Of a stretch of 29,308 nucleotides of DNA, positions 1 through 28,225 are shown piece by piece. Source of the stretch: a virus. The translations under genes were made by a program, and so were the position numbers. The notes under the pieces were generated by a model, which worked only from the letters and a program-made list of their open reading frames with translations, did not search any database and was not told where the DNA came from. Every line of letters starts with the position of its first letter. Position 1 is the first letter of the stretch. The stretch lies in the IMG/VR virus record IMGVR_UViG_3300037621_000132, positions 1 to 29,308 of that record. One strand, written 5' to 3'.

Positions 1-184
1 CAAAAGTTGCATAATCAACACCATAAAAACTAATATCATAATTATTATCAGACTCTGTTAATTCATAGTTTAAACTATTAAATAATTCTCCATTGCCTTT
101 TTTGTCTTTAGTTAATTCAGCTCTTGCTCCTTGAATAACAAAACTTCCAAACTTTCTAAACTCTTCTGATAGTTCTCTTAACAT
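1..184 (-). CDS. HK97-gp10-like tail completion protein, 5' part only (left copy)
   Basis: This is the first 61 codons of the gene found complete at 28226-28828, cut off by the edge of the window. It starts MLRELSEEF where the right copy reads MLRELSNEF; the rest of the visible part matches. Its ATG overlaps the last seven bases of the upstream tail completion gene, as in the other copy. The truncation is an effect of the contig end, not a broken gene. Confidence 0.85.
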   Translation of the reverse strand, partial: MLRELSEEFRKFGSFVIQGARAELTKDKKGNGELFNSLNYELTESDNNYDISFYGVDYATF

Positions 185-642
185 ATAGTCATGTCATTAG
201 GTACTAATACATTAAAAGTTGCTGTAACACCAGCTAACTTATTTTCAAAACGATCAACAAAAAACTCTAATTGTGGATTGCCTTCTAGCTGATATTTTTC
301 TACATATAAATCTCCTCTTAATAATAACTCTAGCAATCTATTGGCTACAGCCATTTGCGTGTTAAGTACATCTTGCTCATTGCTAGTACCTCTGAAATCA
401 GCTGGTGTGCCTTCTGGAAACTCTTTACTCTCATCTACTATATCCATGCATAATACCGATACTTGAAAATTCCATACATTACTCTGCATAGTTGCTCCTG
501 AAATCATTACATGAGATAATGGAAAGATAGTTTGCTTGTTTAAGTCTACTTCAAAAATATCTCCATAGGTTACAGTATTAACAAAAGCATCTAATTGTAG
601 AGTTTCTCTTATTTTGTTAGATAGGTTATAAAATCCTTGCAT
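178..642 (-). CDS. Tail completion/terminator-like protein (left copy)
   Basis: A 154-residue protein placed directly before the HK97-gp10-like gene, where siphovirus head-tail joining and tail terminator proteins usually sit. It begins MQGFYNLSNKI and looks like the small alpha/beta tail-terminator type, but I assign it mainly from position and from its resemblance to proteins in this place in flavobacterial phages. It differs from the right copy at four residues (P/A, T/I, D/E, D/E), although the genes differ at many more bases, so it is under purifying selection. The start follows one base after the stop of the -1 chaperone extension, which suggests coupled translation. Function is inferred, not proven. 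Confidence 0.7.
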   Translation of the reverse strand: MQGFYNLSNKIRETLQLDAFVNTVTYGDIFEVDLNKQTIFPLSHVMISGATMQSNVWNFQVSVLCMDIVDESKEFPEGTPADFRGTSNEQDVLNTQMAVANRLLELLLRGDLYVEKYQLEGNPQLEFFVDRFENKLAGVTATFNVLVPNDMTIC

Positions 643-643
643 A

Positions 644-898
644 TTATTTAAATTTGTTTTTAATCATTGTATTCTCTAGCTGTGTTTTTTCCTTTTCAAA
701 AGCTAAATACATTAGGCATTGATGAAGGGATAACTTTGTAACCTGTTCAAATTTTGTAATGTCGCCTTGAGCAAGTGTATAGAGTTCTGAATAGCTTCCC
801 CATTTTCTGCTAAATCCACTCCTTGCATCTGTGCCTGTTTTATCTCCTTCTCCAAATAATTCGGTATAGATTTCAGCAATGCGTTGGTTAAATTGTAA
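644..898 (-). CDS. Tail assembly chaperone extension, -1 frame (GT-like)
   Basis: Reading the minus strand in the -1 frame from the nine-T run at 897-905 gives 84 uninterrupted residues after the slip, ending in NTMIKNKFK at a TAA one base before the next gene. The stretch contains KWGSYSELYTLAQGDITKF and then VTKLSLHQCLMYLAFEKEK, a pattern I recognise from the C-terminal part of tail assembly proteins in flavobacterial phages. No in-frame start was found before the T run in the part checked, so it is most simply made by ribosomal frameshifting from 712-1368, giving a fusion of about 241 residues. The last 22 codons also have their own ATG at 710-712 in a TAATG overlap. A homopolymer length error (ten T, not nine) would instead make one single long gene. 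Confidence 0.7.
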   Translation of the reverse strand, partial: LQFNQRIAEIYTELFGEGDKTGTDARSGFSRKWGSYSELYTLAQGDITKFEQVTKLSLHQCLMYLAFEKEKTQLENTMIKNKFK

Positions 899-1368
899 AA
901 AAAAACCATCGCTCCAAGTACTACATCAAGTGGCATATCTTTCATCATTTCACTATACTTGTGGCTTCCCTCATAATCTTCTATTAAGTATTTAGAGTTT
1001 AGCTTTTGCTTAACTGGTCTAAAAAGAACAGCCATAGCTTTATGCATATTTCCCCACTCGTTTATGTAGCTTGTAACATCTTTATTTTCTCCATAGGTAA
1101 TATCATCTAGCTTTGGAATAAATCCGTATAACACACCCTTCATTTTAAACGTAGGGATAAACTCATGTTTTTTATCAAAGAGCTTATTAATAATTGATAA
1201 TAGATTATCTACATCCTTATCTTTTATCTTACCTAATTCTTTAGTATTGATATTTAAGATGCATTTAAGCATGTCCTCATTATCTGGATTTTCTTTAATT
1301 AATAACTCTTGATAGTTTTTAAGTTTAACCTCTCTTAAAGAACTAGGAACAGATACTTCTACTTGCAT
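712..1368 (-). CDS. Tail assembly chaperone, zero-frame product (G-like)
   Basis: A 218-residue protein with no signal peptide or strong membrane segment. The middle, around residues 65-125, has the conserved-looking HEFIPTFKMKGVLYGFIPKL stretch and the E-W-G-N-M-H region that I associate with tail assembly proteins of Bacteroidetes phages. After residue 155 (a Val followed by two Phe codons in a nine-T run) the gene can be read in two frames. The zero frame gives a plausible helical tail ending YPFINA; the -1 frame gives a longer extension. Both look like protein, and the shared DNA is visibly richer in G+C than its neighbours, as expected of dual coding. It sits just before the tail genes and just after a terminator at 1389-1419. 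Confidence 0.7.
   Translation of the reverse strand: MQVEVSVPSSLREVKLKNYQELLIKENPDNEDMLKCILNINTKELGKIKDKDVDNLLSIINKLFDKKHEFIPTFKMKGVLYGFIPKLDDITYGENKDVTSYINEWGNMHKAMAVLFRPVKQKLNSKYLIEDYEGSHKYSEMMKDMPLDVVLGAMVFFYNLTNALLKSIPNYLEKEIKQAQMQGVDLAENGEAIQNSIHLLKATLQNLNRLQSYPFINA
897..905 (-). other. Slippery run T9: probable programmed -1 frameshift site
   Basis: The minus strand reads GTT TTT TTT TAC in the zero frame, so a ribosome can slip back one base on T TTT TTT and keep full codon pairing. Beyond it both frames are open: 62 codons in the zero frame and 84 in the -1 frame. Frameshifting in the gene before the tape measure is well established in long-tailed phages (lambda G/GT). I could not identify a firm downstream pseudoknot by eye. 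Confidence 0.65.
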
Positions 1369-1388
1369 ATACTATTTTTTTATATAAC

Positions 1389-1419
1389 AAAAAAAGGATT
1401 ACTTTGTATAAAGCAACCC
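1389..1419 (-). terminator. Rho-independent terminator upstream of the tail chaperone
   Basis: On the minus strand GGGTTGCTTT, loop ATAC, AAAGTAATCC forms a 10-pair stem with two G-U pairs, followed by seven T. The G-U pairs exist only in the minus-strand RNA, so it is directed to leftward transcripts. It follows the stop of 1446-1661 and precedes the ATG at 1368, separating the small-gene cluster from the tail genes. Confidence 0.85.
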
Positions 1420-1445
1420 TCTTTTCAACTAACCATCAACTAAAA

Positions 1446-1661
1446 TTATCTTAATGTCTTATGTAAATATAAATATAATTCTTCTATTTTTTTATGTAAT
1501 ATTTTATCTTGTCTGTATGTTTCATTTCCTATTTGTATTTTACCTTCTCTATGTATCTCTAATTTAACCTCTGGTCTTCTTGTTCTTGTTAATGGTTTTA
1601 CTATTACCTTAATGTCATTTTTAAAACACCAACTAATAGCAGCTTTTACGTTTCTTGTCAT
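1446..1661 (-). CDS. Small basic hypothetical protein
   Basis: A 71-residue, Lys/Arg-rich protein (TRTRRPEVKLEIHREGK in the middle) with no Cys cluster or membrane segment; the C-terminal third is likely helical. Its ATG overlaps the TGA of the small membrane protein gene upstream by four bases, so the two are probably translated together. It is the last gene before the terminator at 1389-1419. I do not recognise it. A nucleic-acid-binding role would fit the charge, but that is only a guess. Confidence 0.65.
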   Translation of the reverse strand: MTRNVKAAISWCFKNDIKVIVKPLTRTRRPEVKLEIHREGKIQIGNETYRQDKILHKKIEELYLYLHKTLR

Positions 1662-1837
1662 TTAAACAAGTTAATCATTATTGCTGGAATAAACATAGTA
1701 GCTATTAAACAAATTATTTGATATATTCTTGTATATAGTTTTCTATAGTAAATGTTATCTGTGTATTCTTTTAGTGTATATACTTTTGTTGTGTTGTTTT
1801 TTGTTACTATTACTTCGTTTTGTTTTACCTCTATCAT
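1658..1837 (-). CDS. Small membrane protein with C-terminal hydrophobic segment
   Basis: A 59-residue reading frame (MIEVKQNEVIV... to ...AIMINLFK). Residues about 38-57 (YQIICLIATMFIPAIMINLF) form one strong hydrophobic segment at the C-terminus after a charged, soluble first half, as in a tail-anchored or inner-membrane protein. It shares an ATGA overlap with 1446-1661, which supports it as a real gene. Placed between terminase and tail genes, its role is unknown; host-takeover or holin-like functions are possible but unsupported. Confidence 0.6.
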   Translation of the reverse strand: MIEVKQNEVIVTKNNTTKVYTLKEYTDNIYYRKLYTRIYQIICLIATMFIPAIMINLFK

Positions 1838-1839
1838 AT

Positions 1840-1950
1840 CTAAAATATTAAGTTATGTATAATAGATTCAAGCGATAATAATACTACACTTGCAATTAAT
1901 AATACAAATGAAAATAATAATAATGTTAAGTAGTGTTTTAGTTTTTTCAT
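1840..1950 (-). CDS. Tiny membrane peptide (36 aa)
   Basis: A 36-residue frame starting MKKLKHYLTLLLFSF. A basic N-terminus is followed by about 20 hydrophobic residues, so it could be a single-pass membrane peptide or a signal-like sequence. It lies three bases after the gene upstream and two bases before the gene downstream, which fits the compact gene string. There is no recognised family, and short length makes the call uncertain. Confidence 0.45.
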   Translation of the reverse strand: MKKLKHYLTLLLFSFVLLIASVVLLSLESIIHNLIF

Positions 1951-1953
1951 TGT

Positions 1954-2130
1954 TTATATTTTTTTAAGTTCTTTATGTACACTATCGTAAATATCTTTAG
2001 CGTCTTCTCTGCTGTTGTCATTTAACATTGATGCAATTAAACACGATATAAATATTTTTCTTTTATATTCTGGTAACTCTAATAAATGAGATAATAAAGT
2101 TCTTTCGTAATCGTTAATTTCGTTTTCCAT
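1954..2130 (-). CDS. Small hypothetical protein (58 aa)
   Basis: A 58-residue, charged, probably helical protein (MENEINDYERTLL... ending ...SVHKELKKI). It is the first gene after the promoter candidate at 2159-2188, with a 28-base leader from the -7 box to the ATG and the usual A-rich leader with no Shine-Dalgarno sequence. It heads a run of four small genes that ends at the terminator at 1389-1419. Function unknown. Confidence 0.6.
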   Translation of the reverse strand: MENEINDYERTLLSHLLELPEYKRKIFISCLIASMLNDNSREDAKDIYDSVHKELKKI

Positions 2131-2158
2131 TGTTTTGTTTTTAGTTATTAATTATACT

Positions 2159-2188
2159 GCAATATATAACTAATTATTTAATTAACAA
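2159..2188 (-). promoter_or_regulatory. Promoter candidate, twin of 11117-11146
   Basis: The minus strand has TTG, 19 bases, then TATATTGC. The first 15 bases, TTGTTAATTAAATAA, are identical to those of the candidate at 11117-11146, and the spacing is the same. The -7 box is a weaker match to TAnnTTTG. The ATG of the small-gene cluster follows 28 bases later. Confidence 0.55.
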
Positions 2189-2207
2189 AATTATTAATAA
2201 CTTTTTT

Positions 2208-3371
2208 TTAGTAAATGTAATATTGACCCTTATTAGGATTCTCTAATTGTGAAGTGATAGCATACCTCATCGCATCTATACAATGGTTAAAAGCATCTAT
2301 TGGTTTATTAAGTGTTTCTCCTTCTTTGTTCTTTAACCAAATGTAGTTCTGTAGTTCTTTGATTAAGTTATGACTTCTATTAGTTATGTAGATTTCATTT
2401 TGATTGATCAGATTAATACCATACACTATTGAGTCTTTACCTTTCTTTACTGGCATTATTAAATGACCATAGCTTGACAACTCTGCAATACTTTTAGGTT
2501 CTGCTGAATCTGCATATATGATTTCTTTTGCTTCGTGTGTTTTAAGTAAGTTACTTATCTGACTATTAAGTAAACCTCTTTGGTATATTACCTCATCAAA
2601 GATATAAGCGTTGTTATATTTGTAAAGTGCTATTAATGTTGAAGGATCATTAGTATAACCAAAATCCATTCCGTAACAAAGTAGCCTAGCTTCATTGGGT
2701 AAGTCAATAGGCTTCCAGTCTTTTATACAAGCACCTTCTAAACTTCCTATCTCTCCAAGCCCATATACATTCCACCAGTTATTCCAATAGGTAGATGTCT
2801 TTGCTTTGTCTTTAGCTTTCTCTATGTCTTTTACTATTGTGTCTGGTAATGCTTCGTTGTCTAAATAAGTAAGCTTTATAAAGTCTGCATCTTCTTTGCC
2901 TTGTAGTTCTGTATGCGCCCAAAATGACGAGGTAGGGTTGAAGTCAATCCATATCTCGCCAGATGTTCTTATTGCTAATTGGTTGTATGCTTCGTATGGT
3001 ATATTGTTAGCTTCGTTTACATATAGTGTGTGTCTTCTTGCTCCTCTTAACTTGTCTGCTGATTCAACACTAAAGAACTCTATATAACTTCCGTTTGCAA
3101 ACTTATACTTAAGCATTGACTTATTATATTGCATATCATTATAACGATTAGTCAACATCATAATCTTTAAGAAGTCTTTTAAAGCACCTCTACGTAAATG
3201 TGGTATACTCTCACTTACTACGCTTATTTCTACGTTAGAAGTCCTTATAGCCCTATCTATGAGGATAGGTAGTATACCAAACGTCTTACCAGCAGATGTT
3301 CCACCTTGAACTATCTTTTTGCGTTTCTTTAGTTTAAGAAGTTTTTTAATTGCAGTTGTTACTACAAACAT
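2208..3371 (-). CDS. terL: Terminase large subunit
   Basis: The 387-residue packaging motor: it uses ATP to drive DNA into the prohead and cuts the concatemer. The ATPase half has Walker A GGTSAGKT near residues 23-30 and a Walker B-like HTLYVNEANN around residue 115-124. The nuclease half has the acidic sites GMDFGYTNDPS, IYADSAEP and AFNHCIDAMRY, as in the PBSX/Terminase_6-type family. Length is normal for a compact terminase of this group. Its ATG overlaps the stop of the small terminase gene by one base, the usual order. Whether packaging is cos or headful cannot be seen here, though the non-identical redundant ends would suit circularly permuted molecules. Confidence 0.95.
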   Translation of the reverse strand: MFVVTTAIKKLLKLKKRKKIVQGGTSAGKTFGILPILIDRAIRTSNVEISVVSESIPHLRRGALKDFLKIMMLTNRYNDMQYNKSMLKYKFANGSYIEFFSVESADKLRGARRHTLYVNEANNIPYEAYNQLAIRTSGEIWIDFNPTSSFWAHTELQGKEDADFIKLTYLDNEALPDTIVKDIEKAKDKAKTSTYWNNWWNVYGLGEIGSLEGACIKDWKPIDLPNEARLLCYGMDFGYTNDPSTLIALYKYNNAYIFDEVIYQRGLLNSQISNLLKTHEAKEIIYADSAEPKSIAELSSYGHLIMPVKKGKDSIVYGINLINQNEIYITNRSHNLIKELQNYIWLKNKEGETLNKPIDAFNHCIDAMRYAITSQLENPNKGQYYIY

Positions 3372-3616
3372 TAATCAATAATATTAAATAAAGGTTGCTC
3401 TGTATTTAATGTGATGTCTTTTGTTTCTCTTGGTTTGCCTGCATAATAGTGATAGAACATTTGTATAAACTTAAACTCTCCAGATTCTATTCCTTTTTTA
3501 AGAGCTTCATACGCCTTAGGTTCTAATGGTGTTAGTCTTTCAATTAACTTTACCTCTTCGGCTTTTGGTTTTCTACCACCGTTTGAATGACCACCGTTAT
3601 TTTTCCTTCCATCCAT
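3371..3616 (-). CDS. terS: Terminase small subunit-like protein
   Basis: An 81-residue basic protein (GGRKPKAEEVKLIERLTPLE near the N-terminus, then helices and ...MFYHYYAGKPRE). The pattern GGRKPKA...LIERL...G.FKFIQMF...Y.GKP is one I recognise from small proteins directly before the large terminase in Bacteroidetes phages, where they are taken to recognise the packaging site. It is much shorter than lambda- or P22-type small subunits, so it would be mostly DNA-binding head without a large oligomerisation part. The direct coupling to terL supports the call. Confidence 0.75.
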   Translation of the reverse strand: MDGRKNNGGHSNGGRKPKAEEVKLIERLTPLEPKAYEALKKGIESGEFKFIQMFYHYYAGKPRETKDITLNTEQPLFNIID

Positions 3617-4146: not shown

Positions 4147-4357
4147 TTATTTCGTTTATGTGTTTTATTATTTCTAAGTATATTAAAAATTCTATGTATT
4201 GTATTGCTAAATTAATACCAGCACATTGTAAATACATTTGTTTATCTTCATAATCATTTAAGATAATCTTTAGTTCTTCTAAGTCTGTACCTTTTTCGTA
4301 ATCATATAATGCTAGGTTGTAAAACTCTTTAACTAAATCCTTATCTTTTTTTTTCAT
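4127..4357 (-). CDS. Small acidic helical hypothetical protein
   Basis: A 76-residue protein rich in Glu, Asp, Ile and Leu (MKKKDKDLVKEFYNLALYDYEKG... ...EIIKHINEINDN). It is probably all-helical and has one pair-forming Cys at most. It overlaps the stop of the nuclease-like gene upstream by four bases and the DnaA-like gene downstream by 20 bases, so it belongs to the same operon. I do not recognise the family. Confidence 0.6.
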   Translation of the reverse strand: MKKKDKDLVKEFYNLALYDYEKGTDLEELKIILNDYEDKQMYLQCAGINLAIQYIEFLIYLEIIKHINEINDNSTN

Positions 4358-5830: not shown

Positions 5831-6032
5831 TAATTTTATCTTTATTTTTTTGAATATATAAAATAGCATCCATTAATTCTTCCTGTAAGTGATTTAACCA
5901 AATTATTAAATCTGAATTATCATCCTGCATTGTTATTCCGTATTTTTTAAACCCTACATCTGAACGCTGTATAAATTTGTCTATTACTTTTTCTACTACA
6001 GGGTCTCTTAGCTCTATATGTTTTTTTTTCAT
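5820..6032 (-). CDS. Small MazG-like pyrophosphohydrolase domain
   Basis: A 70-residue protein with the pattern RSDVGFKKYGITM followed by WLNHLQEELMDAILYIQK. This is the helix pair of short phage proteins related to MazG/dNTP pyrophosphohydrolases, with the acidic EE and D placed to bind metal. It lacks the second acidic helix of full MazG, so it may work as an oligomer or be a partial domain. It overlaps the exonuclease gene upstream by four bases and the dCMP-modifying enzyme downstream by 11 bases. Together with 4770-5084 it brackets that enzyme, which hints at a nucleotide-pool function. Confidence 0.65.
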   Translation of the reverse strand: MKKKHIELRDPVVEKVIDKFIQRSDVGFKKYGITMQDDNSDLIIWLNHLQEELMDAILYIQKNKDKINDK

Positions 6033-18038: not shown

Positions 18039-19967
18039 TTATTTAGGGTATGCTCCTCTATTAGGCATATTCTCTGGCGCAATTCCAGCTTGTTTAGAAC
18101 CTGTTGGATTTTTTATATAACTTTCAGGAATAGTCCTTGTCTTTTTATAGTTGCCTAAATTCTCTGATGGCTCTGTATTGCTTTCTAATCTATAAAGCAC
18201 TTTTTTCCATTTGTGTCTACAGTAGATTCCGCCTTTAAATTTAAAGAGGTCGTAGGGTTGTCTATTATGCCCTAGTTCTCTATTTACTCCTTCTCTACTT
18301 GCTCTGTCAATATCTTCAATAGTCCATACAATACCAGCATTAGCCATATTCATCATGTTTCTACAAAAGTCTCTTTGCGATAAACTTGGTTTATAAGATC
18401 CTCTTGCGTAAGTGTATCTTATTTTATATAATCCGTTTTTTGAATCTAAATAACTAAATGAACTACCAGCATTTTTAGAATCTATTTCATCTTTTAAACC
18501 TAACAAACCCTTAATTTTAGATAGAGTACTTTTTTTCTCATTAATTAAGTAGTTTGCCCAATCTTTATTATCTACATCATCTTCTGCATCTATTTCATCA
18601 ACAAACACATATTCTTCAGACATTTGTTCTCCACTTTCTGCCAAATGACCTAATACATTTTTAGATTCTTCATCTGTAAGACTTGCTTTCTCGTGTGATT
18701 CACAAGGCATATACCATATCTCCCCATCCATTTCGTGTTCGTGATGTCCTTCACAACCTTGCTCTAATGCTTTAGCTTCTGCTTCTTCTATAGTTTTGTA
18801 GGCTTCTATTCCGTCTATTTTCTTTAGGCTCATTTCATAGCCAGTTTCTTCTTCTATAACCTCTTTAGTTTCAATCACATCTATATCGCTAAATTCAATT
18901 GGTTTAAGAGTCTTAAAGTATAAGTCTAATGCTATACTATTAACTGCTAAAATTGCATCAATACACTCCACAACTTGGTCTTGAAAGCATTGTATAACTA
19001 TATTATCAAATAACTGTGTAGCAGTTTTAATTTCTTCTGCATTGTTTCCTAATCCATCGTTACCTTCACGAATCCCTAGAAGCATTGGAGATGTAACCCT
19101 GTGTCCTACGATTAGCTTTCTAAAACATTCATCAGCTAAATACTGATAATGTTGAGGTGCATCGTTTAAAGGAATGTCATCTATTGTAGTTTTAGATTCG
19201 GAATTGTTATTAAAAGCAACGATTACTTTCTCTCCTCTGCTTCCAGTTAATTTGTTTAATACATCACTTTTAATAGACTGCATTTTGTCAGGGTCAGGGA
19301 CGCCGTTATTGAAATTCACAACTTTTGTGCCACTAAAACCATTGATACAGTCATTTATAAGGTAATCTCCTATCTCGTCCTCTAAAACAGCGTAAGGCAT
19401 CGCAGAAGACCAGTCTGGACTACTATAATAGTACTTTCCAGCTTCATAAGGCTTTAAAACGTACATTTCAACACCATTAGCTTTACCAAACCCAAAAGCT
19501 GGGATTCTTTCTGGTTTATGACTAGGTTTTAAATTATCCCAGTGGTTAGAGTAATACCAAGCCTCTATTTCTCCTTCATCATTGCATTTTTCTGCTCTTA
19601 ATGTCTCCATTGGAAAATGGTGTACCTGTTTTACTTTACCATCTTGATAAACTAACTGAAATGCAGCCATTCCTAGTACTTTGTAGTCATTTATGAATTT
19701 TCTTAAATCAGACTTCTTAAATAATGACATCATTTGAGCATATTGCTCTGGTTTTTTGTCTGCATTGTGTGCTGCAAGACCTTTACCATAAATCATATTA
19801 GAAATACCTATTGTAATAGCTCTATTAGTCGTTGAGTTGTTGTTTACATCAATTATGTAGTTAAAATAGTTATTATCTATTCCATATTGTACCCAATCTT
19901 TGTTTTTTAACTCTACGACCTCTGGTGCTGTATATGCTGCTAGTTTTGTTACGAAAAATTCGCTCAT
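18039..19967 (-). CDS. Portal protein with extra C-terminal domains
   Basis: A 642-residue portal. Residues 1 to about 370 form the portal core (KVLGMAAFQLVYQDGKVKQV, HRVTSPMLLGI, NAEEIKTATQLFDNI), which makes the dodecameric DNA gate. The extension beyond is unusual: a His/Cys/Glu block at about 401-425 (GCEGHHEHEMDGEIWYMPCE), an STLSKIKGLLGLKDEI helix near 476-494 that resembles the scaffold N-terminus, and a domain at about 514-592 with RDFCRNMMN, EGVNRELGH and FKGGIYCRHKWKK, seen to me in other flavobacterial phage head proteins. The extension may bind metal and contact scaffold or head. It shares an ATGA overlap with the gene upstream. Core call is firm; roles of the extension are inferred. 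Confidence 0.88.
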   Translation of the reverse strand: MSEFFVTKLAAYTAPEVVELKNKDWVQYGIDNNYFNYIIDVNNNSTTNRAITIGISNMIYGKGLAAHNADKKPEQYAQMMSLFKKSDLRKFINDYKVLGMAAFQLVYQDGKVKQVHHFPMETLRAEKCNDEGEIEAWYYSNHWDNLKPSHKPERIPAFGFGKANGVEMYVLKPYEAGKYYYSSPDWSSAMPYAVLEDEIGDYLINDCINGFSGTKVVNFNNGVPDPDKMQSIKSDVLNKLTGSRGEKVIVAFNNNSESKTTIDDIPLNDAPQHYQYLADECFRKLIVGHRVTSPMLLGIREGNDGLGNNAEEIKTATQLFDNIVIQCFQDQVVECIDAILAVNSIALDLYFKTLKPIEFSDIDVIETKEVIEEETGYEMSLKKIDGIEAYKTIEEAEAKALEQGCEGHHEHEMDGEIWYMPCESHEKASLTDEESKNVLGHLAESGEQMSEEYVFVDEIDAEDDVDNKDWANYLINEKKSTLSKIKGLLGLKDEIDSKNAGSSFSYLDSKNGLYKIRYTYARGSYKPSLSQRDFCRNMMNMANAGIVWTIEDIDRASREGVNRELGHNRQPYDLFKFKGGIYCRHKWKKVLYRLESNTEPSENLGNYKKTRTIPESYIKNPTGSKQAGIAPENMPNRGAYPK

Positions 19968-20299
19968 AATACCACGTATTCGTTAGTTGTTGTGTGTTTT
20001 GTATATACACCATCATTAATACTATAAGTACTAATAGTTTGGTCAGTACAAAATATATTGTCTTTATACACTACACTTGTTCCATTAAGAACAGAAATAG
20101 TATAAAATGTTCCTTTTTTTAATACAGGACTAAACGTTACATTCCCTTGCAAATAGTATCTATCAGTAGCAAATGTTAAACCAGAGTATGTTACTGGTTT
20201 GTTTGTGTCTTGGTCTGTAATAACAATACTATCAGCAGAATATTCTCTTGGAATAAACTTTAATTGTTGTGCGCTAGCACTTGTTGTTAGTATTATCAT
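19964..20299 (-). CDS. Small structural protein of flavobacterial phage type
   Basis: About 111 residues from the preferred start MIILTTSASAQQLKF at 20299; a longer frame to 20332 reaches close to the terminator and creates a false signal-peptide look. The body is all beta (KFIPREYSADSIVITD, FSPVLKKGTFYTISVLNGT, YKDNIFCTDQT). I recognise this pattern from an unnamed virion-type protein placed between tail tube and portal in related phages. It could be an Ig-like or head/tail accessory protein. It is preceded by a terminator and ends in an ATGA overlap with the portal. Confidence 0.65.
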   Translation of the reverse strand: MIILTTSASAQQLKFIPREYSADSIVITDQDTNKPVTYSGLTFATDRYYLQGNVTFSPVLKKGTFYTISVLNGTSVVYKDNIFCTDQTISTYSINDGVYTKHTTTNEYVVL

Positions 20300-20345
20300 T
20301 AAAAGCTTTTTTAAATAACAAAAAAAGGGCAAAAGTGTTTTATAT

Positions 20346-20373
20346 AAAAAAAGGGTAATCCGAAGAATACCCT
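20346..20373 (-). terminator. Terminator with UUCG tetraloop after tail tube gene
   Basis: On the minus strand AGGGTATTC, TTCG, GATTACCCT forms a stem with one mismatch and a C(UUCG)G loop, then seven T. It lies 25 bases after the stop of 20398-20928 and before the next ATG at 20299. Confidence 0.88.
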
Positions 20374-20397
20374 TAATTTAAGAAAAATTAATAAAAA

Positions 20398-20928
20398 TTA
20401 AGTTCCTACTACAACAACCGTATTAGTAGTATCTCCAATAATTGAAGAAGCTACAAAATAAGCTGGTTGCTTTTCAGTTCCAGTAAAAGTTATGTTATAA
20501 CCATTTAAATCTCCCATAGCTGCTCCAGTTGCTGTATTAACAGCACATTCACATCCGTTTTCGATCCCCGCGAGAAAGTAATTCCCGTTGTAATCTTGTA
20601 CGATTATTTGAGGTCTACCATAACTTAATAATTTTAATTCTTTACGAGTAGCAAGATCTTGTTTTTTCAAAACTATTGTTCCTGTTTGTGTCCAGAAAGA
20701 AGTTCCGTTTTCTCTTGAGTTCTCGTTTGTTTGTTCGAAAGAGTTAGCTCCTTTTAAATCGTATTTGTAAAAAGTAAGAGCAGAAGCGAATCCAGTAATC
20801 TCATCATTTGTACCAAACGTAGCAGTTCCTAATAAACCACTTGTATAATTTGAAATGTAGATTGCTATTATCCCCCCAACCGAGTCTTTACAAGGCTCTA
20901 ATCTTCCAGCAGTAATATCACAAGACAT
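20398..20928 (-). CDS. Probable major tail (tube) protein
   Basis: A 176-residue beta-rich protein. It starts MSCDITAGRLEPCKDSVGGI, has SFEQTNENSRENGTSFWTQT and ELKLLSYGRPQIIVQDYNGN in the middle, and GAAMGDLNGYNITFTGTE near the end. The G-x-x-x-GDLNGY-x-(I/L)-T-F end is typical of tail-tube subunits. It lies directly after the capsid gene and has its own promoter-free but terminator-bounded segment, as expected for an abundant virion protein. An alternative is a head decoration protein. I favour tail tube because no other candidate is present. Confidence 0.65.
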   Translation of the reverse strand: MSCDITAGRLEPCKDSVGGIIAIYISNYTSGLLGTATFGTNDEITGFASALTFYKYDLKGANSFEQTNENSRENGTSFWTQTGTIVLKKQDLATRKELKLLSYGRPQIIVQDYNGNYFLAGIENGCECAVNTATGAAMGDLNGYNITFTGTEKQPAYFVASSIIGDTTNTVVVVGT

Positions 20929-20956
20929 ATGTTTAAGGTTTTAAAGTTAATAATAT

Positions 20957-20979
20957 AAAGGGAGGTTTTACCCTCCCCT
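20957..20979 (-). terminator. Terminator after major capsid gene
   Basis: On the minus strand GGGAGG, loop GTAAAA, CCTCCC, then TTTATATT. The stem is strong but the T tract is short, so it may let part of the transcripts pass to the tail tube gene. It starts 12 bases after the capsid stop. Confidence 0.75.
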
Positions 20980-20990
20980 TATTAGTTTAA

Positions 20991-21950
20991 TTATCCAGCG
21001 TAGTAAACTACATCAGCACCTACTCCGATAGCAGCAGCAGCAGTAAATCTCATTACAAGTCTTACGTTTTGACTTCCGTCCATTGGAGTCATATCAATCA
21101 CTCTGACTTCATTGTAGTCTGATAAAAGGCCAGTCGCAAAGAAAAGGTTACTTGATTCAGCAGCTATCATTGTGTCATCTGACATTCCTCTACCTACAAA
21201 TACCGGAATACCTCCGAAAGATAAACTTCCGTTGTTATACCATTGTGTACCTCTGTTATCAGTACCTGAAGCACCAATAGTTGCAGTAAAACCGCCTAAC
21301 GCTCTAATGTATAATTTAGCAGCTTTGTTAGATACATATAATCTTAATTCTTCTTTTCCAAAAAGTGCGTTAGGAATTAAATCCACAACAGCTTGCATTT
21401 TATCGATAATGTTAGTAGCAGTTAAAGCAACAGGAGATGGTACATCAATTACCGTTGCATCAGCAGCAGCAAGAGTTTCAAGTCCGTTGTATTCTCCAGC
21501 TTGTGCGCCACCTAAATTACCAGTCCAAATATTAGTTTCGTTAGCAGCAGCTACTTTAGATGCTACGTAACCAACTAAATAATCAGCAAATGATGTTGGT
21601 AATCCGTTAGGATTAAATGCGCTATACCCCATCTGAATCGATTCCCATGTGTTAATAAAGTCAGACTTACATAATTGTAAGTTTACTTGGAATTCTTCAG
21701 GTTGAATAACTACTTCAGTTAAATTTACATTTGAACTTGCAGAAAAATCACAAGTTCCGTCTGCAATTAATGTTCCAGTTTCTACTTTTTGAATAACTGA
21801 TTTGTATTTTACGTTAGGCATTACAGTAACACCACCGTCTTCAATTGTACTCGAGCTTAATAAAGCAGCCGAGATGTACTTTCCAGCAAATTCTCCAGCA
21901 TAAGTTGAAGTAATATTTACTGTAGTCGCAAGGTCTATCTTTTTTGACAT
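20991..21950 (-). CDS. Major capsid protein (HK97 fold)
   Basis: A 319-residue protein that builds the head shell. The layout is that of an HK97-fold capsid: an N-arm, EEFQVNLQLCKSDFINTWES in the E-loop/P-domain region, a spine helix, and a C-terminal A-domain (GIPVFVGRGMSDDTMIAAES, NVRLVMRFTAAAAIGVGADV). Codon use is visibly more G+C-rich here, as often in strongly expressed genes. It follows the scaffold gene by 15 bases and is followed at once by a terminator. No separate delta domain is present; the neighbouring 186-residue protein is probably the scaffold. Confidence 0.9.
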   Translation of the reverse strand: MSKKIDLATTVNITSTYAGEFAGKYISAALLSSSTIEDGGVTVMPNVKYKSVIQKVETGTLIADGTCDFSASSNVNLTEVVIQPEEFQVNLQLCKSDFINTWESIQMGYSAFNPNGLPTSFADYLVGYVASKVAAANETNIWTGNLGGAQAGEYNGLETLAAADATVIDVPSPVALTATNIIDKMQAVVDLIPNALFGKEELRLYVSNKAAKLYIRALGGFTATIGASGTDNRGTQWYNNGSLSFGGIPVFVGRGMSDDTMIAAESSNLFFATGLLSDYNEVRVIDMTPMDGSQNVRLVMRFTAAAAIGVGADVVYYAG

Positions 21951-21965
21951 AATTTTAAAGTTTTT

Positions 21966-22526
21966 TTAGTTTTTAAATAATTTAGCAAATACTCTGTCTT
22001 GAGTACTCATTGGTTTGTTTTGAGAATAAAGGTGCATTTCTTTTTGACTTTTAGCCTCTGGGTTATGTTTAATAGGTTTTACTTCAGTAGATAATTCTAC
22101 TTCAGCATCTTTAGAACTAAAATCTTCTTTTTCTCCCATTTTTGATTTTAAATCAGCAATAGCATCTTCAAGATTTTTAATTCTAATTTCCATACCTTTC
22201 CAATCAGCAACGTCAGCTTCTTCAGCAGCTTCAACTTCTTCCACAACTGGTGCTTCAACAGTTTCTTCTACTTCTTCTTCTACCGCTTCTTTGATTTCAG
22301 AAATAATACCATCTTCTTCAACGACAACAGTCATGCCATCATCTAAAAGGTATTCTCCCTGTGGTACAGCAATTCTTTCATCTTCATCTGTTACAATAAA
22401 GATTTCTTTACCAGCTTCAAATGAATCAGCTTCAAAGCGAGTGCCATTTTCTAGCTTTCTCTCCTCTAACTGAACTTCTAAACCTAATAAAGTTTTCACT
22501 TTGTTAAGGGTGTCTTTTGAGTTCAT
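21966..22526 (-). CDS. Head scaffold protein
   Basis: A 186-residue, very acidic protein. Residues about 1-75 form a small N-terminal part (DTLNKVKTLLGLEVQLEERK, then FIVTDEDERIAVPQGEYLL), about 76-105 is a Glu/Val run, and about 108-135 is a coiled coil (WKGMEIRIKNLEDAIADLKS). The basic C-terminus (QDRVFAKLFKN) would bind the capsid protein. This plan, with its place between protease and capsid gene, is that of a scaffold that organises the prohead and is later removed by the protease. The N-terminal helix resembles a helix in the portal extension. Confidence 0.8.
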   Translation of the reverse strand: MNSKDTLNKVKTLLGLEVQLEERKLENGTRFEADSFEAGKEIFIVTDEDERIAVPQGEYLLDDGMTVVVEEDGIISEIKEAVEEEVEETVEAPVVEEVEAAEEADVADWKGMEIRIKNLEDAIADLKSKMGEKEDFSSKDAEVELSTEVKPIKHNPEAKSQKEMHLYSQNKPMSTQDRVFAKLFKN

Positions 22527-22587
22527 ATATATTAATTTAAGTATTTACTTTTTTATAAAACAATTTTAGTTATTAGTTGTTGTAAAT

Positions 22588-22743
22588 TCAACTATTTTGA
22601 CCTGTAGTGTTGCCTATGCCTTGATTCTGTAAGTCTCCGTTACAACATTTAGAGTTGTAAGTATTGTCTTTGCATAAGCATCCTCTTCGACCTCCTTTTG
22701 GAGAGGTTCTACTTGGTGTTGGTGTTTGATTCCTCGAGTACAT
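22588..22743 (-). CDS. Small Cys-rich basic protein
   Basis: A 51-residue frame: MYSRNQTPTPSRTSPKGGRR, then GCLCKDNTYNSKCCNGDLQN and QGIGNTTGQNS. Four Cys in a C-x-C...C-C pattern suggest a metal site or disulfide knot. The CLCKD...Y..KCC.G.LQ.QGIGN pattern is one I recognise from the same place in other Bacteroidetes phage head gene clusters. It overlaps the end of the protease gene by 35 bases in another frame. Its role in head assembly is unknown. Confidence 0.7.
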   Translation of the reverse strand: MYSRNQTPTPSRTSPKGGRRGCLCKDNTYNSKCCNGDLQNQGIGNTTGQNS

Positions 22744-23326
22744 CTATTATTTCTTTTAGTAGTTTATCTTCTTCGCTATAAGTATCTTTTTGCTTGTCCT
22801 TTGGTCTGTTTAGTCGATCAATAAAATATCCTTCAATACTAAAGCCTTTTACTTTACCCTCTTTAACGTAATTATTCCAAATATCATCATTATCAACTTT
22901 CATAGCCACCATCCAAGTGCCTATTGGCATCTCTAAACCATACTTTCTAGATTTATCGTGTATATCATCTTCTACTAGCCAAGACTCAACTACTGTCATT
23001 CCAGATAGCTTTTCAGAAGCGTGTTCCATTGTTGCCTCTCCTTGATTACCTTGTTTTAAAAACATTTGTGATGCTTTTGCAACTGTATCTTTAGAGAAGT
23101 ATATATAAAACTCATGATCTCCTGATTTTCTATAAATAGGTTTCTGTGGTATCAAGGCTGCTCCCATAAGTAGTCTTTTTTCTTTACTTATTTCTGCAAG
23201 TCTTATTTGCTTCTGATCTTTTAGTGCTATAAAGTCCTCTTCTATTGCTGGAGATTCAACAACCGAAATAGCTTCTATTCCAGAAAATTCTTCATTATCA
23301 TCAATTACTAATTCTATAATATCCAT
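22709..23326 (-). CDS. XkdF-like prohead serine protease
   Basis: A 205-residue protein of the XkdF (PBSX) type, a serine protease linked to head maturation. The likely catalytic residues are H102 (MEHASEKLSG) and S163 (KVKGFSIEGYF), with GTWMVAMKVDNDDIWNNYVK between them. The N-terminal GIEAISVVESPAIEEDFIAL is also characteristic. It would cut the scaffold and perhaps the capsid N-arm. It precedes the scaffold gene in transcription order, as expected. The C-terminus is a short charged tail. The XkdF name is firm; protease activity is predicted. Confidence 0.85.
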   Translation of the reverse strand: MDIIELVIDDNEEFSGIEAISVVESPAIEEDFIALKDQKQIRLAEISKEKRLLMGAALIPQKPIYRKSGDHEFYIYFSKDTVAKASQMFLKQGNQGEATMEHASEKLSGMTVVESWLVEDDIHDKSRKYGLEMPIGTWMVAMKVDNDDIWNNYVKEGKVKGFSIEGYFIDRLNRPKDKQKDTYSEEDKLLKEIIDVLEESNTNTK

Positions 23327-23367
23327 AATTCTTTTTTTATAAACAATTAAATGTGTTTTTTGTTATA

Positions 23368-24855
23368 TTATCCACCTAATGTTGCACCTTGAATTATTCC
23401 ATTTTCTAAACTTTGTGCAGTAGTAACATCTTGAGCAACTACAAAGGCTTGTATAGGAGTCTGTTGTTGTTCTCCTAATGCAGATGCGATTTGACTTCCA
23501 GCTCCTTGCCCTACTATGTTAAATGCTGGCTCTTGCGCTACTCCTCCTCCTCCTCCTTCTGCTGGTAATGAAACAGAAGATCCAGCACTTCCACCAGCTT
23601 TTAATGCTGAAAGCCCTTTTGCAGTTGCTGCTAATGATGTAGCTATATTTATACCAGCAGAGACTTTATTAGCTGCAATTTCTGCTGCTGCTAAAGCAGT
23701 ACCACCAGGAATTAAAGCATATTTTAATTTTGCTGCTGTATTTGCTGCTGTTGTTTGTTGTATTATTTTTGCTATTCCTACTGCGTTTGATGCTATTATT
23801 CCAGCAGCTTGTAAAGCTCTACTCTTTGGAGCAAGTTTTGCTAATACATTAACACCATTAGCAATATTATCTAGTTCAGCATCTCTTATAGATTTTTTAG
23901 CATCTGCAGCTGTTTTAGCATCATCAATTTCTTTTTCAGTTAATCCTTTTTTTATAACAAAAGAATCAGCTGTTAGTTCATTTGATTGGAGTATTGTATT
24001 GTCTACAGCTACAATTCCTTCTGTTGTTAATTCGGTTACTACTGCTAGTGTTTCTCTAGTTCTATTAGCAGTTTCATTACTAAAAGTTTGTATTTCTATA
24101 TCTAAATCAGCAACTTTAGTTCTTAATGTATTTATTTCATCTAATTTCTCTTGGAAGTTTTTTTCGTCTTGACTTGCTGCCTGCATTAAAAGCAATGTCT
24201 GTTGATTAACTCCAAATATTTCTACAGCTTTTATAGCAAGTTTATCCATAGTAGATAACTCTTTTTGCTTTGATTCTTCTATTTTTAATTGTGCTTCTAA
24301 AGTATTTAATAAAGCTAAAGTTTCTTTTTTTTCTAATAATAAACTTTGTTCAATTTTTTTATTAATTGCATCTATAGAATCTCCTCTTAAATCTGCAAGT
24401 TCTTTTTGTTTTTGAAGTATTGTTAATTCTGTTCTTACATCTTTTAGTAATTGATTTTGTTTATCTATATACTCTTGAAGTTTTTTAGAAGCTCCAGAAA
24501 TATAATCAGTAATTTCATCCCAATAAGCAACAATAACTCCAAGTGCTACAACAAAAGCTCCAACACCTGTAGCTATTAATGCTGTTCGCATTCCCTTTAA
24601 ACTAAAATTGAATAGTTTGGTAGCTTCAAAAGTATCACGCATTCTAGATGCAAGACCACCAGTTAGCTGATCTAGTATAGCAACAGCACCACCATTTTTT
24701 GATACATTTTCAAATTGAGATGAAGTTTTTCCTGTTTCTTTGTTTAGCTTTTTCTCTGCTGTTGTAAGGTTGTCTACTGCTACTGTAGTTGCTGTTAAGT
24801 CTGCTGTTGCTGTTGCTGTATTAGCCTGTACATTAATTACTACTGTATTAGCCAT
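23368..24855 (-). CDS. Tape measure protein
   Basis: A 495-residue protein that sets tail length. Residues about 1-85 are helical and Thr/Ala-rich, 86-112 form a hydrophobic segment (LKGMRTALIATGVGAFVVAL), about 120-260 are a long coiled coil rich in Lys/Glu/Leu, and about 355-450 are Ala-rich hydrophobic helices. A Gly-rich stretch follows near the end. This is the usual tape measure plan. At about 0.15 nm per residue the tail would be near 75 nm, short for a siphovirus. The hydrophobic parts may help DNA pass the inner membrane. Confidence 0.85.
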   Translation of the reverse strand: MANTVVINVQANTATATADLTATTVAVDNLTTAEKKLNKETGKTSSQFENVSKNGGAVAILDQLTGGLASRMRDTFEATKLFNFSLKGMRTALIATGVGAFVVALGVIVAYWDEITDYISGASKKLQEYIDKQNQLLKDVRTELTILQKQKELADLRGDSIDAINKKIEQSLLLEKKETLALLNTLEAQLKIEESKQKELSTMDKLAIKAVEIFGVNQQTLLLMQAASQDEKNFQEKLDEINTLRTKVADLDIEIQTFSNETANRTRETLAVVTELTTEGIVAVDNTILQSNELTADSFVIKKGLTEKEIDDAKTAADAKKSIRDAELDNIANGVNVLAKLAPKSRALQAAGIIASNAVGIAKIIQQTTAANTAAKLKYALIPGGTALAAAEIAANKVSAGINIATSLAATAKGLSALKAGGSAGSSVSLPAEGGGGGVAQEPAFNIVGQGAGSQIASALGEQQQTPIQAFVVAQDVTTAQSLENGIIQGATLGG

Positions 24856-24986
24856 CTTTTATTTCGTTTTATTTGATTATAACCTTCTTTTAAAGTTTCT
24901 GGTAATTTGTTTTTTCCTTTTGCTATTTCTATACTTTCATCTTGACCATAGAAATTATCTGCATTTAATAATTTTAGTATTTTCAT
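24840..24986 (-). CDS. Small basic protein before tape measure (48 aa)
   Basis: A 48-residue frame (MKILKLLNADNFYGQDESIE... ...IKRNKRWLIQ). It fills the gap between the tip protein and tape measure genes and overlaps the tape measure start by 16 bases. The short gap on its upstream side and overlap on the other support translation. No family recognised. Confidence 0.5.
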   Translation of the reverse strand: MKILKLLNADNFYGQDESIEIAKGKNKLPETLKEGYNQIKRNKRWLIQ

Positions 24987-24988
24987 TT

Positions 24989-27166
24989 CTATTCTGTTAT
25001 TATATTAAACCTATTTTCAGTTATTAAATAATCATTATTTTCTGCTAGTACTTCATCAATAGTAGTTGTTTCTGAATTGTGTGTTATAAGTTCTATTTGA
25101 CTTTTATTATTAGTTAAGTTTATGTTAAGACTATTGATTCTAAATTGTTGTCCGTTGATTACAAATATGTCTGCTAGTGTATAATTAAGAATAATGCTTA
25201 ATGGTAAGTAAGCAGTATATTTAACTAGTCTTGAACTTTCTAAAAACAAGTTTTCTATATAACTACTATAATAATTTTGGTAAAGTGTTCCAAAATAATT
25301 TCGTAAGCCTGTATACTCATTAATCATTAATCCAAAGTTTATATTAGCTGTACTAGTTGAAGCTGCTAATGCTACACTATTAGAAGGTAATATATATGAG
25401 GCAATAGGTATATGAGTTGATGCACTATCTCTGAATGAAATTGTAGTAGTTGCACCCCCTGTTTTTAAAATAGGATAAAACAAAATAGGTTTACCTATAA
25501 ATGGTTGTTGATTATCATTTACACAATAACCCCATTGCGCTGTTGTTTGAGTTAATCCACTTTGATCATGTCTATCTAAAAGTCTTTCAAACTGCATATG
25601 CTCAAAAGGAGCTACTACTGTATATATTCCGCCATCTAATCCACCTTCTGCTTCATAACTTTCAGCTCCCCATTTAGCTACGTTTAATTGTTCCCATTGA
25701 GCTGCTAAAAATGTTCCTAAACCTTCATAGGTAAAATTTATTTTTCGATAAGGCAATGCTACATCTACAGAGCTTGTATTTACATCAATGTATTTAGTAA
25801 TGTCATAAGTTGTTGAGGTTGCATAAAAGCTATCTAGCGTATCTACATATATACTACCATCTGCTTTTGTGTATGCAACAAGATTAAATAACTTAAACAA
25901 TCCTGTTAGAAAGTCTATTATTTTAATGTCTGGCGTTTGTTGTGTTATAATAAACTCAAAATTTGAATCACAAGTAAAGCTACTTGTTGAAAAAGTTAAA
26001 TCAGGCGGTGGTAGTTCACCTGGCTCGTTGTTTACAAGAGTCCATTTAATATCACTAAATACTACTGGATCGGTGACAGTTATAATAACAGTCCAATCTC
26101 CAGCAGAAACAGAAGGATTACCTAAATCGCCACCACTAGAATTACTTGATAAGGTTGTGTTACTTGATAAACCTGTAGCTGAATAAATAGATAGTCCGTT
26201 TTGTAAAACTTCAACAGCATACTCATCAGTTGTATTAGAGGTAAATAAATCTAATTTCATTAAAGTGCTAGGTTCAGAATATTGAGCAAATTCTTGACAA
26301 ACAGTTAAAGTAGATACACTACTCATTCCTCCCCAAACTTCTAAAGCACCACAGGCAAAAGTACCAGATGAAGTCCAGCCGTTAATAGAAGTTGGAAATG
26401 TTGCTACTTGGTCGCCATTACCTACTGCACCTGATTTTCTGTGAAGCCACATAAACAAATCATAATAAGGAGCATTTGTATTTACAAAGAAATCATTACT
26501 AAAGGTTATTCCATATGTTGGGTGTGCTTCAATAGCTTGTATAATTCTATCTACTCTTAAAGCATATTTTAATTCAGAATATAAAACACCATTACCATTT
26601 GAGCCACCTCCACTATGATAAAATAAATTGCCATCATTAGTTCCGTGATTACCAGAATCGTAATATAGCCTTTCAGTGTGCGTAATTAAAGGGACAACTA
26701 TATCATTAGTAGCTGGGTCTCGCTGTAGATAATCTTCAATGTTTGTAGTGTTATAATCTAAACTTAATGTATTTAAATCACTTAAAGCTGCTAACTTATC
26801 CTCTCCTAGCACATCATTAAGAGCTACAGTTTCTCCAAAAAATACAACCTTATAAGCATAAGCTTTGTTGTCTTTCATTGCAACAGAGTTAAGCGTAACT
26901 TTACCTATTTTAAAATCTACTCCATTTAATTTAAGTATTGCTGTTACTCTTATTCTTGCATCAAAACCATTGTTAATATTCCAATTATAATAATGCTTAA
27001 ATATCTTATTATTAGTAGATGAAGCTGGTAAGCTAAACTGTTGACTAAAAGCAGTAAATACTTTTGCAACATCTTTAGCATTAACAATGGTATCTGTAAT
27101 AGTTACACTTTCATCTTTAAATAAATCTACTCTTGTATTACTTATATATAGTTCTACTACTTGCAT
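24989..27166 (-). CDS. Large tail tip/baseplate protein
   Basis: A 725-residue protein. The start, VELYISNTRVDLFKDESVTI, then AFSQQFSLPASSTNNKIFKH and GFDARIRVTAILKLNGVDFK, is a pattern I recognise from large tail proteins of many Bacteroidetes phages. The middle carries Ig-like or lectin-like beta regions (about 270-390), and the part from about 400 on resembles a hub (IDFLTGLFKLFNLVAYTKAD). The C-terminal end has EVLAENNDYLITEN. It probably forms the tail tip that contacts the host surface. It starts at the base directly before the upstream gene's stop. Confidence 0.75.
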   Translation of the reverse strand: MQVVELYISNTRVDLFKDESVTITDTIVNAKDVAKVFTAFSQQFSLPASSTNNKIFKHYYNWNINNGFDARIRVTAILKLNGVDFKIGKVTLNSVAMKDNKAYAYKVVFFGETVALNDVLGEDKLAALSDLNTLSLDYNTTNIEDYLQRDPATNDIVVPLITHTERLYYDSGNHGTNDGNLFYHSGGGSNGNGVLYSELKYALRVDRIIQAIEAHPTYGITFSNDFFVNTNAPYYDLFMWLHRKSGAVGNGDQVATFPTSINGWTSSGTFACGALEVWGGMSSVSTLTVCQEFAQYSEPSTLMKLDLFTSNTTDEYAVEVLQNGLSIYSATGLSSNTTLSSNSSGGDLGNPSVSAGDWTVIITVTDPVVFSDIKWTLVNNEPGELPPPDLTFSTSSFTCDSNFEFIITQQTPDIKIIDFLTGLFKLFNLVAYTKADGSIYVDTLDSFYATSTTYDITKYIDVNTSSVDVALPYRKINFTYEGLGTFLAAQWEQLNVAKWGAESYEAEGGLDGGIYTVVAPFEHMQFERLLDRHDQSGLTQTTAQWGYCVNDNQQPFIGKPILFYPILKTGGATTTISFRDSASTHIPIASYILPSNSVALAASTSTANINFGLMINEYTGLRNYFGTLYQNYYSSYIENLFLESSRLVKYTAYLPLSIILNYTLADIFVINGQQFRINSLNINLTNNKSQIELITHNSETTTIDEVLAENNDYLITENRFNIITE

Positions 27167-28222
27167 TTATCTTATGTTGTTTATTGTATCAAAAGCAAAG
27201 CTTACGTCTATTGTGTAATTAATTAAACCATCTGTAACGCTTGTTTTATAGTTAATACTTTTAGATTCTATATTTACACCTGTAGTTTTACCCTTGTACT
27301 CTATCCATACTCGCTCGCTTAAAAACAACTGTCTAAATATTTCATTGTAACTCTCTGGGTAATAATCACTATTAAGAGTTAATCTTTGATTTCCGTTTTT
27401 AGTTAGTAATTTAATCTGTGGGTTGTTTACTGTATAAACTCCATTTGATAGAATATTAGACTTGTATTGTTCTTCGCTAGTATTCATACTTAACTTGGAA
27501 TTAGCAAACATCCATATTTCTTGATATGCACCAAACTTATTTATAAAGACTAATTTGTAAGGTGTGTATTTACATTTCTCATAGGAATCAATAGTTATTG
27601 TTTGTGTTACAACTCCGTCTGTTATTTCAGCAGAATCAACGTCAGGATTACCAGTATTAGTTACGTATATTATTTGGTCTTGAATGTTGGGTGTTGCTGG
27701 AACAGTATAAGTTGAAATTGTTGCACCTTGATTTTTATAAATTAATTGTGTTACTGTAGTCGAATCAATAGGAATTGTAACTGTTGCATTTTTGTTTTTA
27801 AGAATAGTATTATTAGACTGTAATTTCTTTACTAAACCATTTTGTGGGTTTGGCCCTTCTTCAAAATATCCATATCCATAAAATGCTCTCTCTCCATAAA
27901 CAGGAGTGTTTGGTGGTTGTTCATTTTCAGATATAAATTCCGTTACTCTATAATCTACAAAAATAGTAGTTGCTTCTGTTGCTGTAACAGGCGAAGATGG
28001 AAAATTACCATCAAACAAAGGATCTATATAATCCTTTATTAGTTCAGCTATTTCAAAATTAACTTTTTCGCTTATAGCTGTTGAGGTTAATGTATATTGA
28101 GGGCTTCCTTGCCAAGTAGTGTTTGCAGCTCCTGAATATATTATTATCTCAATTTTAGCTGATGTTAAATTAGTGTTTGTTAACTTTACGAAGTATGGAC
28201 TTCTAACGTATATTTTCCCCAT
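27167..28222 (-). CDS. Tail protein, distal tail/baseplate type
   Basis: A 351-residue mostly beta protein (MGKIYVRSPYFVKLTNTNLT... ...INYTIDVSFAFDTINNIR). The IRSPYYVK-like start and the end Y-T-I-D-V-S-F-A-F-D-x-I-N-N-I are shared, as I recall, with a family next to the large tip protein in Bacteroidetes phages. Two-domain beta layout could correspond to a distal tail protein (Dit), but there is no decisive motif. It ends right where the large tip protein begins, so the two are coupled. Confidence 0.65.
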   Translation of the reverse strand: MGKIYVRSPYFVKLTNTNLTSAKIEIIIYSGAANTTWQGSPQYTLTSTAISEKVNFEIAELIKDYIDPLFDGNFPSSPVTATEATTIFVDYRVTEFISENEQPPNTPVYGERAFYGYGYFEEGPNPQNGLVKKLQSNNTILKNKNATVTIPIDSTTVTQLIYKNQGATISTYTVPATPNIQDQIIYVTNTGNPDVDSAEITDGVVTQTITIDSYEKCKYTPYKLVFINKFGAYQEIWMFANSKLSMNTSEEQYKSNILSNGVYTVNNPQIKLLTKNGNQRLTLNSDYYPESYNEIFRQLFLSERVWIEYKGKTTGVNIESKSINYKTSVTDGLINYTIDVSFAFDTINNIR

Positions 28223-28225
28223 TAG

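Follow-up and report, generated by a model that had tools for sequence, protein, structure and literature searches.

A putative tail assembly chaperone gene of Bacteroidota phages with two alternative C-termini behind a conserved shift site

A minus-strand gene in the phage genome analysed here runs into nine consecutive T, beyond which two reading frames stay open over the same DNA, and this raises the question of whether one protein is encoded or two and, in the latter case, how the frame is changed and what the products might do. The window, i.e., the whole stretch of 29,308 nucleotides that was analysed, is a virus record whose ends repeat each other and represents the circularly permuted genome of a marine-type Bacteroidota phage. 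An earlier note, made from the sequence alone, had reported the T9 run at 897-905 and had taken the gene for a tail chaperone in which the -1 frame extends a shorter product.

Two reading frames behind a run of nine T

The T9 run was found as described, and so were the two frames following it, with 61 sense codons and a stop in the zero frame, 84 sense codons and a stop in the -1 frame, and the amino acid sequences that had been quoted from either (Table 1). The codons at the slip read GTT TTT TTT TAC, with F157 (898-900) as the last shared codon, and a -1 shift would produce a fusion of 157 + 84 = 241 residues in addition to the short form of 218 residues. Since the two products would have 157 residues in common and then differ (61 versus 84 residues), the -1 part corresponds to an alternative C-terminus of the predicted long product and not, as previously assumed, to a simple extension of the short one. 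In all clusters of relatives, the third (+1) frame meets a stop within 0-7 codons.

Table 1. Coordinates of the dual-coded gene and of neighbouring genes in the window
Feature	Position	Strand	Basis or remark
Zero-frame ORF, short product, 218 aa	712..1368	-	ORF list
Shared N-terminal domain, codons 1-157	898..1368	-	ORF; homologous in all relatives; PHROG 32199, unknown function
Shift site, nine T, holding the in-register -1 heptamer T_TTT_TTT (898-904)	897..905	-	Sequence and relatives
Zero-frame C-terminal tail of the short product, 61 codons (residues 158-218)	715..897	-	Open and selected; stop 712-714
-1-frame C-terminal tail of the predicted long product, 84 codons	647..898	-	Homologous in all relatives; stop 644-646
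Two-frame overlap (zero and -1)	712..897	-	Substitution pattern, reduced -1-synonymous change, zero-frame stops absent
Stop TAA closing the third (+1) frame two codons past the T run	888..890	-	Sequence
Downstream neighbour gene, 154 aa	178..642	-	Conserved neighbour; PHROG 30964, unknown function
Second gene downstream (across the circular join), 200 aa	28226..28828	-	PHROG 29822
Tape measure protein candidate, 495 aa	23368..24855	-	PHROG 24676, tail length tape measure protein, E 1.7e-16

No match for the gene was found in Pfam or NCBIfam. AlphaFold2 modelling of the short form (mean pLDDT 83.5) predicts that the zero-frame tail forms a pair of long helices (147-181 and 187-210), of which the first crosses the slip site, and the model of the -1 tail is likewise helical (mean pLDDT 85.7). 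Four single viral proteins in BFVD (A0A6J5SVK3, A0A516L5A8, A0A6J5N0W0, and A0A6J7XA66) were hits for the short-form model as well as for the model of the -1 tail, which suggests that these are relatives with a long form encoded in a single frame.

When IMG/VR was scanned with the 218-aa protein, at least 48 relatives were obtained, all of which, where they span the site, have T9 and both frames open; the near relatives with T9 come from independent metagenomes. Wider scans returned several hundred loci among the matches listed, with N-domain identities as low as about 27%. These collection scans list close relatives first, and rarer shift signals may have been missed. Among the matches listed, 304 distinct 150-nt slip contexts were obtained, with T9 in 278, T10 in 15, T12 in 1, and the heptamer A_AAT_TTT in 10. 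A -1 tail of about 76-92 codons is homologous in every readable context among the 304 and follows the pattern F..R...YPE.F...F..KWG.Y..LY.LA.GD...F....L..H.CL..L.FEKEK; part of it has been catalogued separately as PHROG 38404, of unknown function. In one set of relatives (L170, L183, L188-L190, L192, L193, and L204), the zero and -1 tails overlap over their full length (83 and 82 codons). Two apparent exceptions were rejected: a run of "4" in a partial locus, inferred to be L048, whose site lay outside the scanned stretch and which actually has T9, and a broken N domain in L367, where the break is a scaffold gap of 15 N.

Selection over the two-frame overlap

The earlier note had judged the zero frame beyond the T run not to be junk, and three tests bear on this claim. 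For the first, the -1 protein was kept and its synonymous codons were drawn at random, with relatives grouped into 41 clusters at 60% N-domain identity. A zero-frame tail as long as that of the window arises in about 2-3% of such randomisations for the window alone and in about 2% per sequence. Across the family, the zero tail is open for 49-83 codons in 37 of the 41 clusters (Fisher p 1.3e-35 under this randomisation null), whereby the clusters are not fully independent and synonymous sites between them should be near saturation. Within the overlap, which by definition ends at the first stop, 0 zero-frame stops were observed compared to 113 expected over the 41 clusters. Calibration of the null on alternative-frame stops gave 732 observed versus 739.8 expected in the N domain and 126 versus 118.7 in the part of the -1 tail that is read in this frame only (-1-only tail).

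The second test scored the amino acid similarity in the zero frame that is left once the -1 frame and the avoidance of stops are accounted for. In a first group (48% -1 identity), the excess amounted to 1.13 per codon in the overlap (z 12.8), compared to 0.07-0.10 per codon in N-domain controls (z 0.9-1.6) and 0.42 in the -1-only tail. A closer group showed an overlap excess of 1.47 per codon (z 18.1) versus 0.39-0.50 in the controls, with N-domain z values of 5-8; the -1-only tails reached z 4.5-4.7 in the two groups. An origin of the zero tail as a composition artefact was rejected on the basis of the randomisation null together with this test.

For the third test, a synonymous-site comparison among relatives that had been proposed beforehand, -1-synonymous change in the overlap was reduced to an observed/expected ratio (O/E) of 0.65-0.72, compared to 0.92-1.09 for upstream 60-codon windows. 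It is lowest at -1 codons 2-21 and 42-51, which roughly match the two predicted helices of the short form. However, this test is the weakest of the three and alone would not prove selection on the zero frame, since in independent pairs, the most conservative comparison, synonymous changes are likewise few in the short -1-only tail (O/E 0.49).

The overlap also shows a position-specific substitution pattern. The G+C-rich third positions that had been noted there apply to the zero frame (0.48, whereas 61-codon windows across the phage have a median of 0.18 and a 95th percentile of 0.30) but not to the -1 frame, where the value of 0.26 resembles that of the N domain (0.27); the -1 frame therefore carries a normal codon signature. 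Codon-position rates and third-position G+C thus show that the overlap is constrained mainly by the -1 frame. A reading in which function is confined to the -1 product, with the zero tail open by coincidence or through -1-frame composition would be in line with these two features, and with the zero tails of 16-41 codons, indistinguishable from chance, of the Nonlabens clade, L137, L133, and L134. Nonetheless, it is very improbable and, judging from the comparisons above, already largely refuted, both by the openness of the zero tail in 37/41 clusters (about 1e-35 expected) and by zero-frame amino acids that are conserved, relative to controls, beyond the -1 constraint. By parsimony, the long zero tail is ancestral on a midpoint-rooted tree, a result that depends on the rooting.

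Both C-termini, when compared with phage relatives, thus have homologs, apart from the few clades with short zero tails, and both are under purifying selection over the same 61 codons, as the double constraint proposed in the earlier note would have it. The idea that T9 is a sequencing or assembly error and that the true run has ten T within a single long gene, to which error-prone homopolymers and a window consisting of one metagenome-derived virus record could lend some weight, can be dismissed practically with certainty, given T9 in hundreds of independent contigs and two isolate genomes as well as a conserved zero frame past the run.

Ribosomal or transcriptional slippage

While the shift site is real, whether the ribosome or RNA polymerase slips had been left unseparated in the earlier note. 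An in-register -1 heptamer is present in every relative, as T_TTT_TTT within T9 or longer runs or as A_AAT_TTT in the sister clade, and ribosomal -1 frameshifting on U_UUU_UUU may well be what happens at the T run. As the seven-base ribosomal site is present in register in any run of nine T, the sequence of the run itself cannot separate the two mechanisms. Ribosomal slippage is favoured over transcriptional slippage because of the sister clade (L367, L441, L442, L444-L450, and L452-L458), in which the canonical -1 heptamer A_AAT_TTT replaces the T run, in register and at the same place. T9 as the slippery signal, as originally proposed, hence holds for most contexts but not for this clade. 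Its members have one extra codon, a valine wobble base fixed as A, and zero and -1 tails of 79-81 and 85-89 codons, respectively, so that the overlap is nearly complete. As RNA polymerase would find no homopolymer there, these phages are most naturally read as using ribosomal -1 slippage, and this reading is also the favoured one for the remainder of the family, to which parsimony would extend it.

Downstream stimulatory RNA structures are frequent, though not obligatory, at -1 frameshift signals. No conserved downstream RNA stimulator was found here (RNAalifold -0.07 kcal/mol; mean z -0.02 over 40 clusters, for structures other than pseudoknots), and a Shine-Dalgarno-like upstream stimulator was seen in just 6 of 41 clusters. 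Furthermore, T7 and T8 were looked for in the 304 distinct contexts among the matches listed and neither was found, which speaks against the ribosome, for which seven would suffice.

It is quite possible, if not what we expect, that RNA polymerase slips on the T9 template instead and that mRNAs with an extra U are translated normally into the long product; mRNAs losing a U would end at once in the closed +1 frame. Besides the missing stimulator, this explanation draws on the length of the run, which is at least 9 in 294/294 T-type contexts among the matches listed. A tree built from 114 non-redundant N domains has T9 as the ancestral state, and the 7 length changes inferred by parsimony are all between 9 and 10 or more, with no state below nine; moreover, a length of nine is kept where the phase of the run moves (L132, L187, L201, L211, and L134). 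In the other genes of the same contigs, T runs are avoided in all three phases, and runs of A9 or longer number 13 compared to 44.6 expected. Nine nucleotides is the usual length that bacterial genes avoid, and a 9T run conserved in homologs has been considered very likely to serve purposeful transcriptional slippage (Baranov et al. 2005, PMC1088944). However, the A_AAT_TTT clade keeps the same two frames without a homopolymer, any nine-T run holds T_TTT_TTT in register and thus serves the ribosome too, and homopolymer avoidance may equally reflect replication errors. In addition, a relative with T12 (L156) is tolerated, although polymerase slippage should climb steeply with length.

More tentatively, the two mechanisms may coexist within this Bacteroidota phage family, with polymerase slippage at nine or more T setting the ratio of the two proteins, a sister clade that switched to ribosomal slippage on A_AAT_TTT, and both C-termini selected throughout. 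If true, the family would have switched at a single position between recoding in transcription and recoding in translation. Because T9 or longer runs and A_AAT_TTT replace each other naturally, polymerase and ribosome slippage can be tested at one site. The same arrangement of frames occurs with longer T runs (10-12) in L156 (T12), L148, L165, L172, L174, and L269, which provide natural variants for relating slip rate to run length. It should also be noted that the window contains two sense-strand A9 runs (4346-4354 and 6021-6029) immediately after start codons (MKKK...), despite the under-representation of A9 or longer in the coding sequence of the contigs examined.

Putative function and relation to known systems

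A shared N domain followed by two C-termini set by a slip is the design of lambda G/GT, which is why we think that the gene works like a tail assembly chaperone. We consider it probable that it is a dual-coded, tail-assembly-chaperone-like gene with programmed -1 frameshifting and two products, belonging to a siphophage-type tail module. Most translation or transcription events would stay in frame and yield the 218-residue short form with its zero-frame helical tail, while a minority would shift by -1 at T9 and yield the 241-residue long form with a different helical domain from the -1 frame. As for lambda G/GT, many short chaperones and a few long ones with a second binding domain would result, in a ratio set by the slip rate; unlike that of lambda, the short form would carry its own selected tail. 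That both products are made, and their ratio, is what we infer from the sequence, and the chaperone role is suggested by architecture and tail-module context. This architecture, one gene with a short and a frameshifted form and a shared N domain, appears conserved in the 304 contexts among the matches listed, and the context comprises the tape measure candidate, conserved neighbours, and, in three relatives, a match of the family of the 200-aa gene to PHROG 5 (Neck1 or tail completion). Both neighbour genes are retained in nearly all relatives; a profile search of the PDB with either gave no match, and the 154-aa gene is tail-terminator-like by size and position only.

The earlier assignment as a tail chaperone thus agrees with architecture and position, but a sequence or fold match to a known chaperone is lacking: lambda G, lambda T, and HK97 gp13 showed no sequence similarity (hhalign probability of about 0.1% against each), and a fold search of the PDB gave no match at E <= 0.001 and, on a second look, only helical hairpins. 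Tail chaperone families diverge beyond sequence recognition, and absent similarity does not exclude membership. Nevertheless, this lack could be taken to mean that the gene encodes a structural protein in two forms, e.g., a connector or tail-tip subunit, rather than an assembly chaperone, since frameshifted structural proteins occur in other phages. In addition, the gene adjoins terminase-side genes, which it directly follows, and not the tape measure gene; in the window it is separated from the tape measure candidate by four genes and does not lie directly upstream of it. We regard a structural protein as unlikely, as chaperones are the best fit to the size and helical content, to the neighbours in the tail module, and to a -1 shift behind a shared N domain.

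Like lambda gpG/gpGT and HK97 gp13/gp14, the gene combines a shared N domain with a -1 shift near its end, two predicted products with different C-termini, and a tail module with a tape measure gene. In lambda, both gpG and gpGT are binding partners of the tape measure, and it is through the T part that the tail tube is recruited (Atkins et al. 2016, PMC5009743). The shift site is GGGAAAG in lambda and T9 or A_AAT_TTT here, and the zero-frame stop lies 5 codons past GGGAAAG compared to 61 selected codons here, in accordance with the earlier observation that this overlap is much longer than that of lambda; moreover, lambda GT is mainly an extension, whereas here the two C-termini are alternatives. 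The tail chaperones of the SEA-PHAGES and Xu et al. sets also have a programmed frameshift at a slippery motif, but their mean distance from the slip to the in-frame stop is 26 and 36 nt, respectively (PRFect, PMC10885494), whereas this distance is 183 nt in the window and, for most members of the family, about 147-249 nt. Genes with 9A/9T slippage (IS transposases, Thermus dnaX; PMC1088944) share the conserved nine-base homopolymer and the additional product from another frame, but here the gene belongs to a phage tail module, and the sister clade swapped the homopolymer for a ribosomal heptamer. In the open-licence literature, a tail chaperone with a run of T7 or longer was not found.

Frameshifted tail chaperones are a textbook case, in which the overlap normally spans a few codons and the short form lacks a selected tail of its own. 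The kind of system is therefore known, and what is new is the length of an overlap that is selected in both frames, the presence of alternative tails, and the swapped shift signals, with 49-83 codons read in two frames that are both conserved throughout a phage family of great diversity and almost no annotation. As both overlapping readings are conserved, gene callers and family databases have split the gene or missed one product. Among 50,697 phage records, the only isolates found were the Nonlabens phages P12024L and P12024S, whose gp40-gp41 (PHROG 32199 and PHROG 38404) correspond to the same gene with the same N domain, T9, and -1 tail. Unlike in the window, they are annotated as two hypothetical genes, and the zero tail has just 25 codons. 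In these loci (L050, 6001-6692, corresponding to JQ823123 23946-24640, and L051), gp40 and gp41 are one frameshifted gene, gp41 being a fragment of the -1 tail that was called separately.

The gene order on the minus strand of the window (18039-28828 and 178-3616) is unusual, as terminase, dual-coded gene, tail-type genes, and tape measure precede capsid-like and portal genes. Furthermore, the terminal stretches 1-664 and 28645-29308 are near-identical copies that differ by a few amino acids in the encoded 154-aa protein, and therefore the circular assembly joins strain variants.
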